Origin: Oribacterium sp. P6A1
GTDB taxonomy: Bacteria; Bacillota; Clostridia; Lachnospirales; Lachnospiraceae
Reading direction: 5' to 3'
Assembly: GCF_000702885.1 (NCBI RefSeq)
Contig: NZ_JNKO01000002.1
Coordinates: 1-64,000, forward strand
DNA length: 64,000 nt
Below the pieces are notes generated by a model. The model was not told the DNA's origin. It saw only the letters and a program-made list of their open reading frames with translations, and searched no databases. The translations under genes were made by a program, and so were the position numbers. This document shows positions 6,134-57,784 of the stretch, one piece after another; the first letter of the stretch is position 1, and the number at the start of each line of letters is the position of its first letter.

Positions 6134-7513
6134 ATGAAAAAAAATTTGAACAGAATGGCTGCGTTACTTATGACAGTGGCATGTGTAAGCTCACTTGCAG
6201 CATGCGGCAGCAGCACAACTGCTGAAACAAGCAAGGCAGCCGATGCAACAACTGAAGCAGCTTCAACAGCGGCAGGAACAGAGGCAGCAGCACCTGCAGA
6301 AAAGTCAGAGCTTGCAGGACAGTCAATCACACTTCTTAATTCAAAGGGTGAGATTCAGACAGCTCTTGAGGAGCTTGCAGGAACATTTACAGAGGAGACA
6401 GGCATCAACCTTGAGGTTCTTGCATGCGGAGCAGGTGAGGTTCCTTATACTAAGGTTACTTCCATGTACAGCTCAGGAACAGCACCAACCATGTCAATTC
6501 TTGATACAACAGACGTTATCGCACTTGGCGCTGAGTACGGACTTGACCTTACAGATCAGGACTGGAACCAGTATTGCGACAGCATGACAACAAAGATCGA
6601 CGGTAAGGTTTACAGCTTCCCGTTCTGTGTTGAGGGTCGTGGAATCATTTACTCAAAGAAGTCAATCGAGGATGCTCTCGGAAAGGATTTCGATCCTGCA
6701 TCCATCAACTCACTTGATTCCTTCAAGGCAATCTGTGAAGAGCTCAGAGCAGCAGGTATGGAGAATCCTGTGGTTCTTTCAAAGGAAGACTGGTCACTGG
6801 GTGCACATCAGCTCGGATATATCTATGATACATACGACGGCACAACAGCCGGTGCTGACAAAATCATGGCAGCTCTTAAGGATGGTTCACAGAAGGTTGA
6901 GGATTATGACCGTTTTAACCAGTTCATGGATACCATGGATGTGATCCTTGAGTACAACTACAACAAGGAAGATCCACTCGGAGCTATCTACGATGAGGAT
7001 CCTATTCACCTTGTTGAGGGTGATGCAGCATTCTGGCCAAATGGTAACTGGGCATGGCCAAACCTTGAGACAGCCGGTGCTGAGACATCTGATGAGTATG
7101 GCTTCATTCCGTTCGTTCTCGGAAATGATTCTTCTGATATTGCCAACACATCAATGCAGGCATCTCCTACAAAGCAGCTTATGGTAGACGCAAAGCAGTC
7201 AACAGAGGAGCAGCAGAAGGCAGCTCTTGAGTTCATCAACTGGCTTGTAAACTCAGAGTCAGGTCAGAAGGGCCTTGTTGAGAAACTCGCACTTATCCCT
7301 GCATGCTCAAACAACACTGTAGCTCCTAAGGATCCGTTAAGCCGTGATATCGTAGCTAAGATGGCTTCAGGAAATACTTACTCTTCAAGCTTCGTAGCAC
7401 CTTCAGATCACTGGTCAGTAGTTGGTGCTGTTATGCAGAAGTATGTTGCAGGTCAGACAGACCGTGCTGGTGCTGCTTCAGAGATCGATGCTTACTGGCA
7501 GTCACAGAAATAA
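6134..7513 (+). CDS. Sugar ABC transporter substrate-binding lipoprotein
   Basis: A 459-residue family 1 extracellular solute-binding protein. The N-terminus is a lipoprotein signal with lipobox LAAC (Cys24), followed by an Ala/Thr/Glu-rich linker of about 30 residues. The mature part has SITLLNSKGEIQTALEELA, typical of maltose/oligosaccharide-binding proteins, and a WPNGNWAWPN segment rich in Trp that may contact sugar. It acts outside the membrane and delivers ligand to the two permeases that follow. Expression is probably controlled by the promoter/operator at 6032-6090. The sugar is unknown; the phosphorylase upstream suggests an alpha-glucoside. Confidence 0.9.
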   Translation: MKKNLNRMAALLMTVACVSSLAACGSSTTAETSKAADATTEAASTAAGTEAAAPAEKSELAGQSITLLNSKGEIQTALEELAGTFTEETGINLEVLACGAGEVPYTKVTSMYSSGTAPTMSILDTTDVIALGAEYGLDLTDQDWNQYCDSMTTKIDGKVYSFPFCVEGRGIIYSKKSIEDALGKDFDPASINSLDSFKAICEELRAAGMENPVVLSKEDWSLGAHQLGYIYDTYDGTTAGADKIMAALKDGSQKVEDYDRFNQFMDTMDVILEYNYNKEDPLGAIYDEDPIHLVEGDAAFWPNGNWAWPNLETAGAETSDEYGFIPFVLGNDSSDIANTSMQASPTKQLMVDAKQSTEEQQKAALEFINWLVNSESGQKGLVEKLALIPACSNNTVAPKDPLSRDIVAKMASGNTYSSSFVAPSDHWSVVGAVMQKYVAGQTDRAGAASEIDAYWQSQK

Positions 7514-18461: not shown

Positions 18462-18490
18462 TTGACAATCCATTTGATGGATGTTAATAT
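18462..18490 (+). promoter_or_regulatory. Promoter of rplJ-rplL
   Basis: TTGACA (18462-18467) and TAATAT (18485-18490) with a 17-bp spacer precede the L10 leader. Confidence 0.85.
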
Positions 18491-18494
18491 ACGC

Positions 18495-18616
18495 AACGTA
18501 TTAACCCGAAGACAGCAGGTGGTGCCGTAAGGTACCGTAAGACAGAACGCCTGCCGAGGAAAGATACAAACTATTTTGTTTGTTCTACCCCATGTCTTTT
18601 GGCATGGGGTTTTCCT
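18495..18616 (+). ncRNA. Ribosomal protein L10 leader
   Basis: Between the rplJ promoter and gene lies a typical L10 leader: an AGCAGG...CCTGC-closed structured domain with GGTGCCGTAAGGTACC inside, followed by a stem-loop terminator, ACCCCATG...CATGGGGT (18587-18610) with a TTTTCCTTTT tail. L10 (with L12) binds such leaders and promotes premature termination. The match is by layout and partial sequence memory; a covariance search would confirm it. Confidence 0.8.
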
Positions 18617-18662
18617 TTTAGAAAGGTTTATACGAAAATCTTATAAGGAGGAAAAACCGTAA

Positions 18663-51603: not shown

Positions 51604-51674
51604 GCGGGTGTAGTTCAATGGTAGAATGTCAGCCTTCCAAGCTGAACATGTGGGTTCGATTCCCATCACCCGCT
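51604..51674 (+). tRNA. tRNA-Gly(TCC)
   Basis: A 71-nt cloverleaf: acceptor GCGGGTG/CACCCGC, D-arm with AGTTCAATGGTAGAA, anticodon loop CTTCCAA (TCC), T-arm GTGGGTTCGATTCCCAT. No CCA is encoded. First of three tRNAs transcribed together. Confidence 0.97.
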
Positions 51675-51679
51675 GCGTT

Positions 51680-51752
<73 letters not shown>

Positions 51753-51809
51753 TTCAGAGAGATTCGAACTGATGACGAAGATTATCGGTTTGCTCTTAAC
51801 TGAATATAT

Positions 51810-51881
51810 GCGCGAGTAGTAGAGTGGTACTACGTCGCCTTGCCAAGGCGAAGATCGCGGGTTCGATCCCCGTCTCGCGCT
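51810..51881 (+). tRNA. tRNA-Gly(GCC)
   Basis: A 72-nt cloverleaf: acceptor GCGCGAG/CTCGCGC, anticodon loop TTGCCAA (GCC), T-arm CGGGTTCGATCCCCG. It is followed by a terminator. Its last 14 nt and the following 6 nt are duplicated exactly at 52077-52096. Confidence 0.97.
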
Positions 51882-54183: not shown

Positions 54184-54771
54184 GTGAAACAGTATGTTGT
54201 TCATGGCAGTACAGTAAGGACTGTGGATACAGAAGAATTTAAGACTGCTGACGGTACTGTTGTCATCGAGCAGAAGGGTCACCGTGATAAGCTGCATATT
54301 TACAGAACGAGAACAGGACAGCTTAAGATGGAATATACCGAGGACAGAAGTGTTATAAAACCTGTTCTTCGCAGAATTCCGGCAGTTGTGATAGATCGTG
54401 TATGTTATACTGCTTTGGTATTTTCTCTGATTGTTATTTTTTTCTCCTGCTACCAGTGCATAAAGCTTGATACACAGGTTTCGACAAGTCTCAGAAACAT
54501 TGAGCAGATGAGGTCGGAGCTGGAGGATATTAGGCTTCAGAATAATGAGCTTAAAGCAATTATAGACAGTGCGGTGAATCCGGATGAGATATATCGTGTG
54601 GCTACACAGGAGTACGGTATGGTGGCACCTGTCAGTTCTGAGGTTATTACATTCAAAAAAACCGACACCGGTTATGTTCGTACATGGGATGACATACCAA
54701 GCGGTAAGGTTAAAGATGAAAGTATGATGGCTGTACTTGCCAACCGTATCATGAAGTTGTTCGGAAAATGA
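54184..54771 (+). CDS. FtsL-like septum protein
   Basis: A 195-residue bitopic protein: ~75-residue cytosolic N-terminus, one membrane segment (YTALVFSLIVIFFSCYQCI), then an extracytoplasmic coiled coil (NIEQMRSELEDIRLQNNELKAIIDSAV) and a IYRVATQEYGMVAP motif shared by FtsL/DivIC-type proteins. It probably works in the divisome with DivIC. Start is GTG at 54184 after AAGGAGATC. It is a single gene followed by a terminator. FtsL assignment is by architecture; no dcw neighbour supports it. Confidence 0.72.
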   Translation: MKQYVVHGSTVRTVDTEEFKTADGTVVIEQKGHRDKLHIYRTRTGQLKMEYTEDRSVIKPVLRRIPAVVIDRVCYTALVFSLIVIFFSCYQCIKLDTQVSTSLRNIEQMRSELEDIRLQNNELKAIIDSAVNPDEIYRVATQEYGMVAPVSSEVITFKKTDTGYVRTWDDIPSGKVKDESMMAVLANRIMKLFGK

Positions 54772-54790
54772 GTATTATGATTTTATAGAG

Positions 54791-54819
54791 GGGCGTCCGT
54801 TTTATCGGACGCTCTTTTT
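54791..54819 (+). terminator. Rho-independent terminator after the FtsL-like gene
   Basis: GGGCGTCCG and CGGACGCTC pair with one wobble around TTTTAT, followed by TTTTT. Confidence 0.85.
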
Positions 54820-54947
54820 GCGTGATAATAGCTTTGATTGAAGAGCACCTTGTAATGCGGGGATCAAGGAGAAAGAAAAAGAAGAAATTTCGCTCAAAAG
54901 GAATTAGAAAAAGCATTAAAATAAAAATAATTTCCGTAAAATAAAAC

Positions 54948-54976
54948 TTTACAAATCAAATATTCGCTGTTATTAT
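54948..54976 (+). promoter_or_regulatory. Promoter of the large non-coding transcript
   Basis: TTTACA (54948-54953) and TATTAT (54971-54976) are 17 bp apart. No start codon with ribosome site follows for over 650 nt, so the transcript would be non-coding. Confidence 0.65.
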
Positions 54977-54982
54977 AAGTAC

Positions 54983-55645
54983 AACAGAACAAGATAAGTC
55001 AACAGAAAAGTTCACTTGACGAGAAAGAGTGAAGGGCCGGTTGACAAAAGTGCAGGAGATGAACCTGCGAAACAAGATCGTAGAAAGTAAGAGGTACAAA
55101 GACATGACACCAGATCAGTCAGTCAATAGTATCCTCTGGACCGCTTAAAAAGAAGAAAATCGTGAGAACGGCATCGAACCGTACATTCGATGAAAAACAG
55201 TTCAAATTATTAGAGAAGTGCATCTTCGGATTATTTCTTACTAAAGCCCAGATGATATTATTGCAAAAGAGAAATCGACATATAAATAGTTATCGAATGA
55301 TATAAATAACTGAAACAGTTCAGAAAATAAATTAGTTGAAGACCTTTAAGGAGGGTCATAAAAAATCTGAAAAGAAGAATACTTTGAAAGATTAGAATAG
55401 TAATTAATAAAATAAAGTGTCGATTTTACAATTGAATATCAAAACTGAATAAAGAAATAATCTATTTATAGATGATATCCATAAGATATAAAAGATTTAT
55501 CGAAGAGATATTTATAGAATTTAAATAGAAATCTAAGAAAAGAGGTACAAACCGAAGTACAATTAAGTAATGGAACTTATTACCGGGTTCCAGGGTTGAG
55601 TAAATAAAATATATAGGGGTTGCCGTAAGGCAACCCCTTTCTTTG
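54983..55645 (+). ncRNA. Candidate large structured non-coding RNA (about 660 nt)
   Basis: The stretch has no ORF of note, begins at the predicted start site of the promoter at 54948-54976 and ends in a strong terminator. Visible helices include 55011-55016/55028-55033, 55052-55056/55064-55068, 55090-55097/55129-55137 (one bulge), 55172-55178/55186-55192 (perfect, 7-nt loop), 55288-55293/55306-55311, a long-range 9-bp helix 55272-55280/55418-55426, and alternative pairings at 55567-55592. Size, lack of coding capacity and closeness to tRNA genes recall the ornate large RNA classes ROOL and GOLLD described from Firmicutes and rumen sources. That link is inference; I cannot match a consensus by eye. 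Confidence 0.6.
55616..55645 (+). terminator. Terminator of the large non-coding transcript
   Basis: GGGGTTGCC and GGCAACCCC form a perfect 9-bp stem around GTAA, followed by TTTCTTTG. Confidence 0.92.
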
Positions 55646-55760
55646 TGTGTAAATATATTAAAGATCGAATCTCCAAAGTTTAGATCCCGGCTTTCAGAGG
55701 CTCCAGCTTTAAATCTGCGGGTTCTGTGAAGCGCCGGAATCCGGGGATATATGAGCCGGA

Positions 55761-57152
55761 TCAGTGCAGCTGCTTAAGCTCTTTCCGAACCCTCTTGATC
55801 ACAAAAGTATAGGAAACTGCAGTGAAGACACCTGCGGCAATCCATGCTGCGGGATCGCAGAATACTGCAAGAGGGAAGCTCATAATGTACATTGCGATGA
55901 GAGCAACTATGAGTCTCGCGAAAAACTCGACTACACCGCCCATCATCGGAAGAAATCCGTGCCCGCATCCCTGCATTGCATTTCGGAATATAAAAATAAA
56001 ACTTAACGGGATATAGAACATGGTTACTATATGTATATATGTACTTGACCATGGCATCATTAGTGAAATGGTATCAAGACTTTCAACTGCGCCTGCAGCA
56101 GCTTCTGCGGAGCCGGATCCGGCAAAGAACAGAGACATGACAGGCTGCAGAAGGGCGTTGCAAAGTAGGGCTGCGATTATCGCATAGGTGACTTCTATCA
56201 CGATGGCCGCATGAACACCCTTGTTTATTCTGTCGCTGTCTCCTCCTCCGTAATTCTGACCACAGTATGTGGCTACGGCCTGTCCCATGGCGAGCATTTC
56301 CTGTATCATAAGGCTGCTTAGCTTATTTGCGGCAGTGTATGCGGCAACAGCGGTTGAACCGAAAAGGTTTATGGCTGACTGCATTACCATGGTTCCGGAA
56401 GCTGTGATTCCGAACTGGAGAGCCATCGGAATACCGACTGCCATCTGATGCTGGGTATCGGTTTTATTTATGCGCCAGTCTGAACGTTCTGGCCAAAGCA
56501 CCTTTGCTTTTGAATGGATATATAAAAGACAGAGGATGGCTGATATTCCCTGAGAAAGATTTGTGGCCCAGGCCGCACCGGCGACGCCCATCTTTCCAAC
56601 TATAATAAACAGGAGATCCAGGCCTACGTTGAGGCTAGCACTGAAAAGCAGAAAATAAAGAGGCACCCTGCTGTTTCCTATGGAACGGATAAATGCTGAA
56701 AACAGGTTATAGTACACACTTGCCACGGTTCCGAGGCAGATAATGGTAATGTAGGTAAGCGAGTCGTGGAAAATATTTACCGGAGTGTTCATGAGATGGA
56801 GCAGGGGGCGCATTAGCGAAACTGACAGAATAGTTACTATCACTATGACTATTAGCGCCAGAAGGATGCCGTTGGCAACGCTTCGTTTAACTCTTTTAAA
56901 GTTCCGGGCACCGTAAGCCTGCGAGGTAAGAACCGTAAAGCCTGTGCAAAGCCCCTGGGAAAAGCCGAGAACCAGAAACATGATATTTCCTGTAGCTCCT
57001 ACTGCTGCCAATGCATCTGCACTTACATAACGACCGACAATGATGGTGTCGGCCATGTTGTAGAGCTGCTGAAAAACATTGCCGATAAACAGCGGAATCA
57101 TAAACTTCAATATAATAGGAAAGGGATTTCCTTTAGTCATTGTTACTTCCAT
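55761..57152 (-). CDS. MATE family efflux transporter
   Basis: A 463-residue multidrug/toxin extrusion protein with about 12 membrane segments. The start MEVTMTKGNPFPIILKFMIPLFIGNVFQQLYNMADTIIVGRYV is typical of the DinF/NorM-like branch in Clostridia. The ATG at 57152 follows GGAGG; a longer frame to 57260 adds 36 residues without similarity. The substrate is unknown. It stands alone; a promoter is visible upstream on the minus strand. Confidence 0.9.
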   Translation of the reverse strand: MEVTMTKGNPFPIILKFMIPLFIGNVFQQLYNMADTIIVGRYVSADALAAVGATGNIMFLVLGFSQGLCTGFTVLTSQAYGARNFKRVKRSVANGILLALIVIVIVTILSVSLMRPLLHLMNTPVNIFHDSLTYITIICLGTVASVYYNLFSAFIRSIGNSRVPLYFLLFSASLNVGLDLLFIIVGKMGVAGAAWATNLSQGISAILCLLYIHSKAKVLWPERSDWRINKTDTQHQMAVGIPMALQFGITASGTMVMQSAINLFGSTAVAAYTAANKLSSLMIQEMLAMGQAVATYCGQNYGGGDSDRINKGVHAAIVIEVTYAIIAALLCNALLQPVMSLFFAGSGSAEAAAGAVESLDTISLMMPWSSTYIHIVTMFYIPLSFIFIFRNAMQGCGHGFLPMMGGVVEFFARLIVALIAMYIMSFPLAVFCDPAAWIAAGVFTAVSYTFVIKRVRKELKQLH

Positions 57153-57179
57153 AATAACCTCCCTGATTGATGAATGAGC

Positions 57180-57208
57180 ATTATAATATTTTGATTCTGA
57201 TTTTTCCA
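57180..57208 (-). promoter_or_regulatory. Putative promoter of the MATE gene
   Basis: On the minus strand TGGAAA and TATAAT are 17 bp apart, 28 bp before the start codon. Confidence 0.55.
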
Positions 57209-57337
57209 TAGTAATATTTGTATTTCTGGAAAAAACATAAAAACTCTTAAATATAATCATCGCTAAGCTAAAATTAATGTTGTATAATTACTATATCGTA
57301 GCTGTTTTTTTGTTTGATAGTATGTTAACAATAGAAC

Positions 57338-57784
57338 ATGAAGATAGTTATGAAAAAAGAATGGAGTGGAACATTGAGAAAGTGGAAATCAGATATTGAA
57401 GCTATGGGCATCATAATATGTTTTTATCTGATTCTGGAGATTGTCCTTGGCATTACCTGCCCCATCAAGTTCATGACGGGGATTTCGGATGCGGGCTGCG
57501 GCATGAGTCGTGCATGGATGTGCGTGCTCAGACTGGATTTTGAAGGTGCATTTTACTATCACCCTTTATGGATGCTGCCTGTTCCTGCTGTGCCGGTATT
57601 TATAGTCAGGGAAAAGCTTCCGAAAAGAGTATATCAGATGCTTGTTGCGGCTTTTATCGCGGCTTTCATCATAGTTTATCTGTATCGTATGTTCTTTATG
57701 CCGGATCAGGATATAGTTGTATTCAGACCCTGGGAAGGCTTCATATGGAGAACGGTACAGTTTTTCTCCGGCTTTTTGAAGTAA
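57338..57784 (+). CDS. DUF2752 small membrane protein
   Basis: A 148-residue protein with about three membrane segments. The motif CPIKFMTGISDAGCGMSRAWMCVL is the DUF2752 signature (CP...TG--CPGCG-TRA). Function unknown. ATGs at 57338, 57350 and 57361 are all possible; none has a strong ribosome site. The hairpin at 57801-57839 after it (GACCCT...AGGGTC with ACAGC/GCTGT inside) has no T-run. Confidence 0.8.
   Translation: MKIVMKKEWSGTLRKWKSDIEAMGIIICFYLILEIVLGITCPIKFMTGISDAGCGMSRAWMCVLRLDFEGAFYYHPLWMLPVPAVPVFIVREKLPKRVYQMLVAAFIAAFIIVYLYRMFFMPDQDIVVFRPWEGFIWRTVQFFSGFLK

Follow-up and report, generated by a model that had tools for sequence, protein, structure and literature searches.

Positions 54,948 to 55,645 of the window (the 64,000-nt stretch of DNA that was analysed, from contig 2 of a 3.7-Mb Oribacterium genome, family Lachnospiraceae) read, by sequence, as a stand-alone transcription unit on the Oribacterium chromosome whose product almost certainly represents a new class of large structured RNA; our preferred reading, to which we give a probability of roughly 0.6, is that the class is a large, stand-alone and probably dual-function RNA of the Lachnospiraceae. 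Comparison of its copies shows a unit of ~660 nt in which a 5' domain, formed by helix P1 around hairpin P2, is followed by a short open reading frame (mini-ORF) led by a Shine-Dalgarno (SD) sequence, and shows also that two helices, P4 and P5, compete for the same ORF bases and that helices further downstream covary. To our knowledge few bacterial RNA classes are as large and as conserved, and most of them have no known role; this RNA lies beside conserved chromosomal genes, has paralogues across Oribacterium and a likely relative in other Lachnospiraceae genera, and the ORF inside its main helix would offer a concrete handle on its state, partner or phenotype. An earlier sequence-only reading had proposed a large ornate RNA in a Lachnospiraceae genome, and the homologues, compensatory changes and kept ends described below bear this out. 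Its remark that the region holds no usable ORF is correct for long ORFs, but not for the SD-led 14-codon ORF at 55104–55148, which has a counterpart in 26/26 copies of the two Oribacterium types, A and B.

Both ends of the unit lie where that reading had placed them. The promoter TTTACA-17-TATTAT (54948–54976, plus strand) has an extended -10 with TG ahead of it, matches the consensus at 10/12 positions and ties for best among the seven promoter-like sites in 54700–55800 (shuffles, 3.6 ± 2.3); the A/T-rich stretch upstream of it is similar among type A copies. From the -10 element the RNA, a type A copy of ~660 nt, is predicted to run from 54983 to 55645 on the plus strand, an extent in line with its homologues and with alignments A2 and A8, and it ends in a 10-bp intrinsic terminator (55615–55638, plus strand) that is called on the other strand too, facing a convergent MATE transporter gene. 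By eye, all nine type A copies have a promoter-like upstream stretch and end in a hairpin and T-tract, with variable stem sequences. With a minimum free energy of -146.2 kcal/mol the fold is more stable than those of 20 dinucleotide shuffles (-110.9 ± 6.8; z = -5.2).

Upstream, on the same strand, stands a DivIC-like gene (54184–54771; PF04977, 25.4 bits, under the cut-off of 28.9) and downstream the MATE gene (55761–57260, convergent to the RNA; PF01554, 167.8 bits); within ~1.5 kb on each side the former is found at 8/9 type A loci and the latter at 7/9. A terminator-like hairpin after the DivIC-like gene (~54789–54820, plus strand), noted by direct reading and absent from the list of the terminator scan, is consistent with independent transcription of the RNA. 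A tRNA cluster a few kb away had been read as a setting reported for the ROOL RNAs: three tRNAs do lie at 51604–51881, ~3 kb upstream with two genes between, but the ROOL setting is not matched, the locus being syntenic and chromosomal. At Rfam gathering scores the whole window gives these three tRNAs and one ribosomal protein L10 leader (18488–18625; RF00557, 65.6 bits), and no other family. The phage and plasmid collections contain no match to the window RNA, and viral contigs gave none in a pattern search for type C (below). A phage or plasmid origin was rejected; the one viral-contig match looks by eye like coding sequence and has no match at E ≤ 0.1 to the covariance model R1.

Type A was found by BLAST (E ≤ 1e-4) in 9/17 genomes of the genus, that of the window included; eight copies are near full length, with 79–100% identity, and the ninth, in genome G003, is shorter and diverged. 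R1, a covariance model built from the first 159 nt at the 5' end, gave, besides the nine type A copies, one accepted locus per genome of a diverged paralogue, type B, for all 17 genomes, nine of which carry both paralogues and eight type B without A; strains NK2B42 and WCC10 are among the Oribacterium genomes concerned. The type B copy of the window's own genome is on contig 2 at 228237–228403, minus strand (47.5 bits, E 7e-7), flanked by a convergent M20 peptidase (pepT-like) gene and a divergent 5-formyltetrahydrofolate cyclo-ligase gene. Within ~1.5 kb on each side the pepT-like gene recurs at 14/17 type B loci and the cyclo-ligase gene at 11/17, with neither at two loci (L044, L046); the three weakest of the 17 (L049, L026, L050; 28–33 bits, E 8e-4 to 0.009) all have the pepT-like flank. 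Eight further R1 hits (L025, L028–L034) were judged by eye to be chance, L059–L062 (E 0.08–0.7) were set aside without inspection, and four hits outside the Lachnospiraceae were taken as chance without study.

Several features of individual type B loci may be recorded here. One copy (L048, ~1560–1690) has an insertion of ~90 nt in the P3 region, and another (L045) has a SAM riboswitch (1998–2102, 65.5 bits) a few hundred bases away on the other strand. The own-genome copy (6400–7027 of locus L191) adjoins the 5-formyltetrahydrofolate cyclo-ligase gene, which in proteobacteria is a neighbour of 6S RNA; a search of locus L035 at E ≤ 1 gave no 6S RNA match.

Evidence for the fold comes from two kinds of comparison. 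The eight-sequence type A alignment (A8) was scored against a 77-pair structure that was itself partly drawn from those sequences: 94.1% of paired cells can pair (shuffles, 90.9), 15/77 pairs change on both sides (6.6 ± 1.5), cells with two-sided change number 25 (9.2 ± 2.2) and the covariation score is 0.169 (0.116). On these four of five measures 0/500 shuffles were as high; the fifth, the number of further pair types, does not exceed the shuffled level (29 vs 29.6; 390/500). Pairing falls to 32–43% (at most 43.2%) when the partners are slid, a control that leans toward the drawn structure because of its partial origin in the same sequences. As drawn, 81% of the cells of P9, 86% of those of P8 and 76% of those of the terminator are paired, and P9 fails in three type A copies as aligned. 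Since divergence between types A and B precludes a single reliable alignment, a cognate-arm test was used between them, in which the pairing of each copy's own arms is compared with that of arms from other copies in 5000 permutations, phylogeny being ignored; the sets were 19 chosen A+B representatives, 13 B copies and 7 A copies. Two control pairings were null (permutations as good: 2793 and 3549 for B, 3598 and 4547 for A+B, 2030 and 4233 for A). Because the tests are not passed within type A alone, the support they give is that of type B and of A versus B.

The 5' domain is closed by P1 (54998–55003, GUCAAC, with 55040–55045, GUUGAC; plus strand, as are all the elements below), for which 0/5000 permutations were as good in the A+B set, 1/5000 in B and 714/5000 in A; the helix is mostly broken in the G003 copy. 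Within it stands the P2 hairpin (55011–55033), whose conserved 11-nt loop, UGACGAGAAAG at 55017–55027, is common to types A, B and C and whose stem changes on both sides (0/5000 in A+B, 0/5000 in B, 412/5000 in A). An H-type pseudoknot at the 5' end (GUCA/UGAC crossing P2) was dropped, as type B shows P1 covarying, though it is possible in the G003 copy; a hammerhead ribozyme, considered from CUGACGAG..GAAA, was rejected on paper, as the two flanks of the motif pair together. The P3 hairpin (GCAGG/CCUGC, 55052–55068) has one pair changed on both sides and passes the A+B cognate test at 0/5000.

The next two helices involve the mini-ORF. P4 would pair the SD (55091–55097) with the ORF (55129–55136), and permutations as good number 15/5000 and 12/5000 in A+B, 47/5000 in B and 689/5000 in A. 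P5 is long-range and joins the 3' half of the ORF (55124–55139) to 55248–55263; in the 19 A+B representatives its energy is -25.9 kcal/mol for cognate and -17.3 for non-cognate arms (0/5000), with 0/5000 in the 13 B copies and 263/5000 in the seven A copies, and a single pair is broken in 3/8 type A copies. The best P5 partner starts 105–179 nt 3' of the ATG in the 19 copies (stretch searched, 105–245, with L026 and L050 at its edge).

Further downstream, the P6 hairpin (CAUCGAA/UUCGAUG, 55172–55192) has two pairs changed on both sides and is gapped in three copies. The 9-bp long-range helix of the sequence-only reading, P8 (AAAUCGACA at 55272–55280 with UGUCGAUUU at 55418–55426), stands at exactly the proposed site, and its second pair, A-U in three copies and G-C in four, is changed on both sides; its ninth pair is kept in only 3/8 type A copies, and the G016 copy, off by one base in the alignment, would pair UCGGC with GCCGA after a shift made by eye. 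The P13 hairpin (55572–55591) has arms GGAAC, GAAAC or GGGAC with the complement matched each time, and P11 (CUAUUUA/UAAAUAG, 55462–55528) is invariant and hence neutral as evidence. Sequences like the AAUUGAAUAU element (55430–55439) occur by eye near the 3' end of several type B and C RNAs. The GAGGUACAAACCGAAGUAC module (55542–55560) is doubled in the G003 copy (L009, ~1200–1300, where AGGTACAAACC..AAGT stands twice in tandem and once in other type A copies) and resembles by eye a GGU...ACC-AUG motif in several type B RNAs. In five of these (L026, L050, L045, L047, L051) a second start-like motif near the 3' end, approximately GGU..ACC/UCC-(A/G)AUG, was seen by eye; a stop follows within a few codons, and type A has AAG instead of AUG.

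The mini-ORF of the window copy, MTPDQSVNSILWTA, has 14 codons plus a stop (55104–55148) and is preceded by the SD sequence GAGG (55091–55094, found by script). In 25/26 A/B copies the script picked up GAGG with an ATG after it that opens a frame of 12–19 codons, and the remaining copy (L047) has, by eye, GAGGTATCCAGCGATG and MIPAQSFDDTEGQR. The 3' half of the frame, from ATG+20 onward, forms the 5' strand of P5; P4 draws on part of that stretch (55129–55136), so that P4 and P5 are mutually exclusive, and P4 would sequester the SD. The P1–P2 domain, the SD-led ORF and P5 are all present in the type B paralogue. Across the 26 copies SD and ATG are kept while flanking bases change, and the mini-ORF is probably translated in types A and B. 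The peptides have strongly diverged, from MDEEQYFYWRLN to MIPAQELNNISRLSKGTKL. The codons CCA-GCA-CAG are mostly identical, and for this reason what is kept may be the RNA and not the peptide.

A third form, type C, was found in other genera. Locus L027 (genus g52) matches R1 at 25.7 bits (E 0.03), below the 30.1 bits of L025, a presumed chance hit; it is a promoter-to-terminator unit of ~700 nt with the P2 hairpin. R2, a covariance model trained on A, B and L027, added four loci (L086, L088, L090, L091) with the same hairpin and start region. R2 hits in long open frames (L087 and L089, 29 bits) are as strong as the accepted type C loci (25.5–30.6 bits), and type C was therefore accepted on shared elements, not on score. 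The R2 hits L087, L089, L093–L103, L113 and L117–L122 are chance by eye, most of them overlapping long open frames; L104–L108, L110, L123, L124 and hits without a locus were left out of the inspection. With a type C query (L137), BLAST matches at E ≤ 1e-5 occur in 37/378 genomes of the family, representing 34/334 genera, of which 28 fall in the core from the ORF to GATGTGT, seven near the promoter only and two in the 3' part only; one promoter-only match (L178) and one 3'-only match (L181) both have the ORF, and the other seven of these nine were left out of the closer inspection. Two Oribacterium genomes searched (G000, G009) gave no type C BLAST match.

Among 22 hand-picked type C loci from 22 genomes the ORF has 27–36 codons and starts with TTG (16), ATG (5) or GTG (1), whereas the other two frames are open for 3–25 and 1–20 codons, and the spacing from start to CARTAT is 24, 27 or 30 in 22/22. 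An ORF that holds its frame through insertions and deletions has the pattern of a translated frame, and translation is very probable here; many third positions of the core hardly vary, which points to constraint on the RNA as well. Pfam and NCBIfam gave no match for the four peptides tried. The type C SD pairs with a stretch close to the 3' end of its ORF (cognate -12.7 vs permuted -11.6 kcal/mol, 0/5000), although in L136 and L179 the best site for the duplex lies elsewhere, and a long-range UCGGAG/CUCCGA pairing covaries by eye (L128, L169). This sequestered-SD design is common to type C and types A/B, and two type B copies (L026, L050) have the CC(A/C)-ATGGAC start context seen in type C. 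Type C is a likely relative of A/B, its kinship resting on the hairpin, the layout and the weak R1 match to L027 given above; the two may be wholly homologous or may share modules only.

The P2 hairpin occurs in further settings. As a bare 13-mer, CTGACGAGAAAGG is not enriched, with 39 matches in 250 genomes vs 45 for the reversed control pattern. In 30 fetched loci its 31 exact matches (eight of the 39 were left out) have a flanking stem of 1–2 bp in 18 cases and of 4–11 bp in 13, and only the latter were taken as hairpins. Nine of the 13 are type C-like (L127, L128, L131, L135, L136, L137, L140, L146, L147), and the rest are the own-genome type B (L148), two copies of a short unit of genus g84 (L132) and L150. 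The g84 units (L085, L092, L109 / L132) are ~200 nt long and have the P2 hairpin, an SD, the mini-ORF MIEPVQQ and a terminator, two of them standing ~850 bases apart in one genome; L150 (G101) is a shorter unit with the P2 hairpin and the elements CCTCCGATT and AACTGAATAG, and no mini-ORF was seen in it. In five genomes of genus g170 the hairpin precedes the ileS start by 25–26 nt, measured from the matching 17-mer (L111, L112, L114, L115, L116; hairpin at ~1517, ileS ATG at ~1560); Pfam was run on L115 only (PF00133, 276 bits), and other g170 genomes are outside this count.

These elements suggest how such an RNA might work. The mini-ORF would be translated in A and B, as it most likely is in type C, and a ribosome on the ORF would remove P5, leaving the RNA in one state; without translation P5 or P4 would form, and with P4 the SD would be shut. 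The overlap of both helices with the ORF suggests that translation and fold control each other, and covariation outside the ORF would accord with an RNA function separate from the peptide, though it is no proof of one. By itself or together with a protein, the folded RNA would then act in trans, which is a guess made because the next gene is convergent both for the window copy (MATE) and for the own-genome type B (pepT-like), with no obvious cis target; and the P2 hairpin may be a docking site for a shared factor, because the same hairpin stands just upstream of ileS in another genus. In its fullest form the proposal, which we regard as speculative and rather doubtful, would be a translation-gated device of many Lachnospiraceae genera: a ribosome on the mini-ORF would pick one of two exclusive folds of a 550–800-nt RNA whose P2 loop also marks ileS leaders, and the RNA would report the state of translation, perhaps the supply of charged tRNA, in trans.

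Two other readings were weighed. A purely non-coding ornate RNA, a particle or RNP scaffold like ROOL or OLE in which the mini-ORF is a chance by-product of conservation in a hairpin region, would account for the large share of the RNA that lies outside the ORF, for helices that covary in several parts, for a 3' half of the A/B ORF that is bound by P5 pairing and for core codons that vary little; we consider it unlikely, since the SD and ATG persist in the 26 A/B copies amid changing flanks and since type C combines starts that vary among TTG, ATG and GTG with a start-to-CARTAT spacing in multiples of three at all 22 loci. The second reading, in which the unit is an mRNA whose product is a tiny peptide and the RNA, with its long structured 3' UTR, serves only to control that peptide's synthesis and decay, is improbable: it is suited by an SD-led ORF close to the 5' end in all three types, by the conserved frame of type C and by an SD-sequestering helix, but ~500 nt of conserved sequence and structure past a 14-codon ORF seems excessive, the A/B peptides diverge strongly and many third positions of the type C core show little variation.

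A cis-regulatory leader or attenuator of a neighbouring gene, to which the leader-like ORF, the competition of P4 with P5 and the P2 hairpin just upstream of ileS in another genus would lend themselves, is very unlikely for an RNA that ends in a terminator and faces a convergent gene (pepT-like in the case of the own type B); past the MATE gene the first same-strand ORF of at least 60 aa starts only at 57338. Membership in ROOL, GOLLD, OLE, HEARO, raiA or another described family, which like size and tRNAs a few kb off in a Lachnospiraceae genome had suggested, is scarcely credible. Searched against Rfam 15, neither the window RNA nor any of the 27 related loci gave a matching family at gathering scores: the best hit to 54700–55800 at E ≤ 10 is GibS, at 31.7 bits vs a cut-off of 115, with no ROOL; at E ≤ 1 the 27 loci gave only the SAM riboswitch described above and four hits that fall far short of their cut-offs; neither ten type C loci nor L027 gave a family at cut-off; and the whole genome at E ≤ 1 gave no ROOL match, nor did control genomes, so that this last search is weak taken by itself. 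Of the two outcomes that the sequence-only reading had held open, a ROOL member finds no covariance-model match and the wrong setting, a syntenic locus beside chromosomal genes, and the best fit is a new class, amended to include a conserved mini-ORF.

The literature covered, PMC8040213 and PMC11109978 included, neither names this RNA nor describes an RNA class built as a translation-gated two-fold device, although an entry within a supplementary candidate table, for example that of PMC8040213, is possible. ROOL is described as phage- or prophage-borne, often near tRNA islands (PMC12286853); assembly into a homo-octameric RNA cage is a further feature of that family. The window RNA resembles it (RF03087, 574 model positions) in size class, many helices, the lack of a long protein gene and tRNAs within a few kb; it differs in having no covariance-model match and no phage or plasmid match, in its syntenic place beside chromosomal genes and in its SD-led ORF. 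OLE, GOLLD, HEARO and raiA, whose models belong to the Rfam library, are likewise large or structured stand-alone RNAs with a role that is unknown or partly known, but searches of the window RNA and of the 27 related loci reported none of them. The lncRNA of Lactobacillus salivarius is also a long bacterial non-coding transcript of a gut Firmicute (520 nt, abundant; PMC5643018), but it is described as species-specific and as borne on a megaplasmid, and the window RNA has no match in the plasmid collection.

Dual-function RNAs also offer a comparison. Staphylococcus aureus RNAIII, 514 nt with hld, and Bacillus subtilis SR1 are of this kind, and Vibrio cholerae VcdRP is a dual-function RNA encoding the 29-aa VcdP. 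All three resemble the window RNA, as predicted from its sequence, in being a stand-alone transcript with a short ORF, and RNAIII has a large fold too; what sets the window RNA apart is that its ORF forms a strand of the main long-range helix and that the SD would pair with the ORF's own codons.
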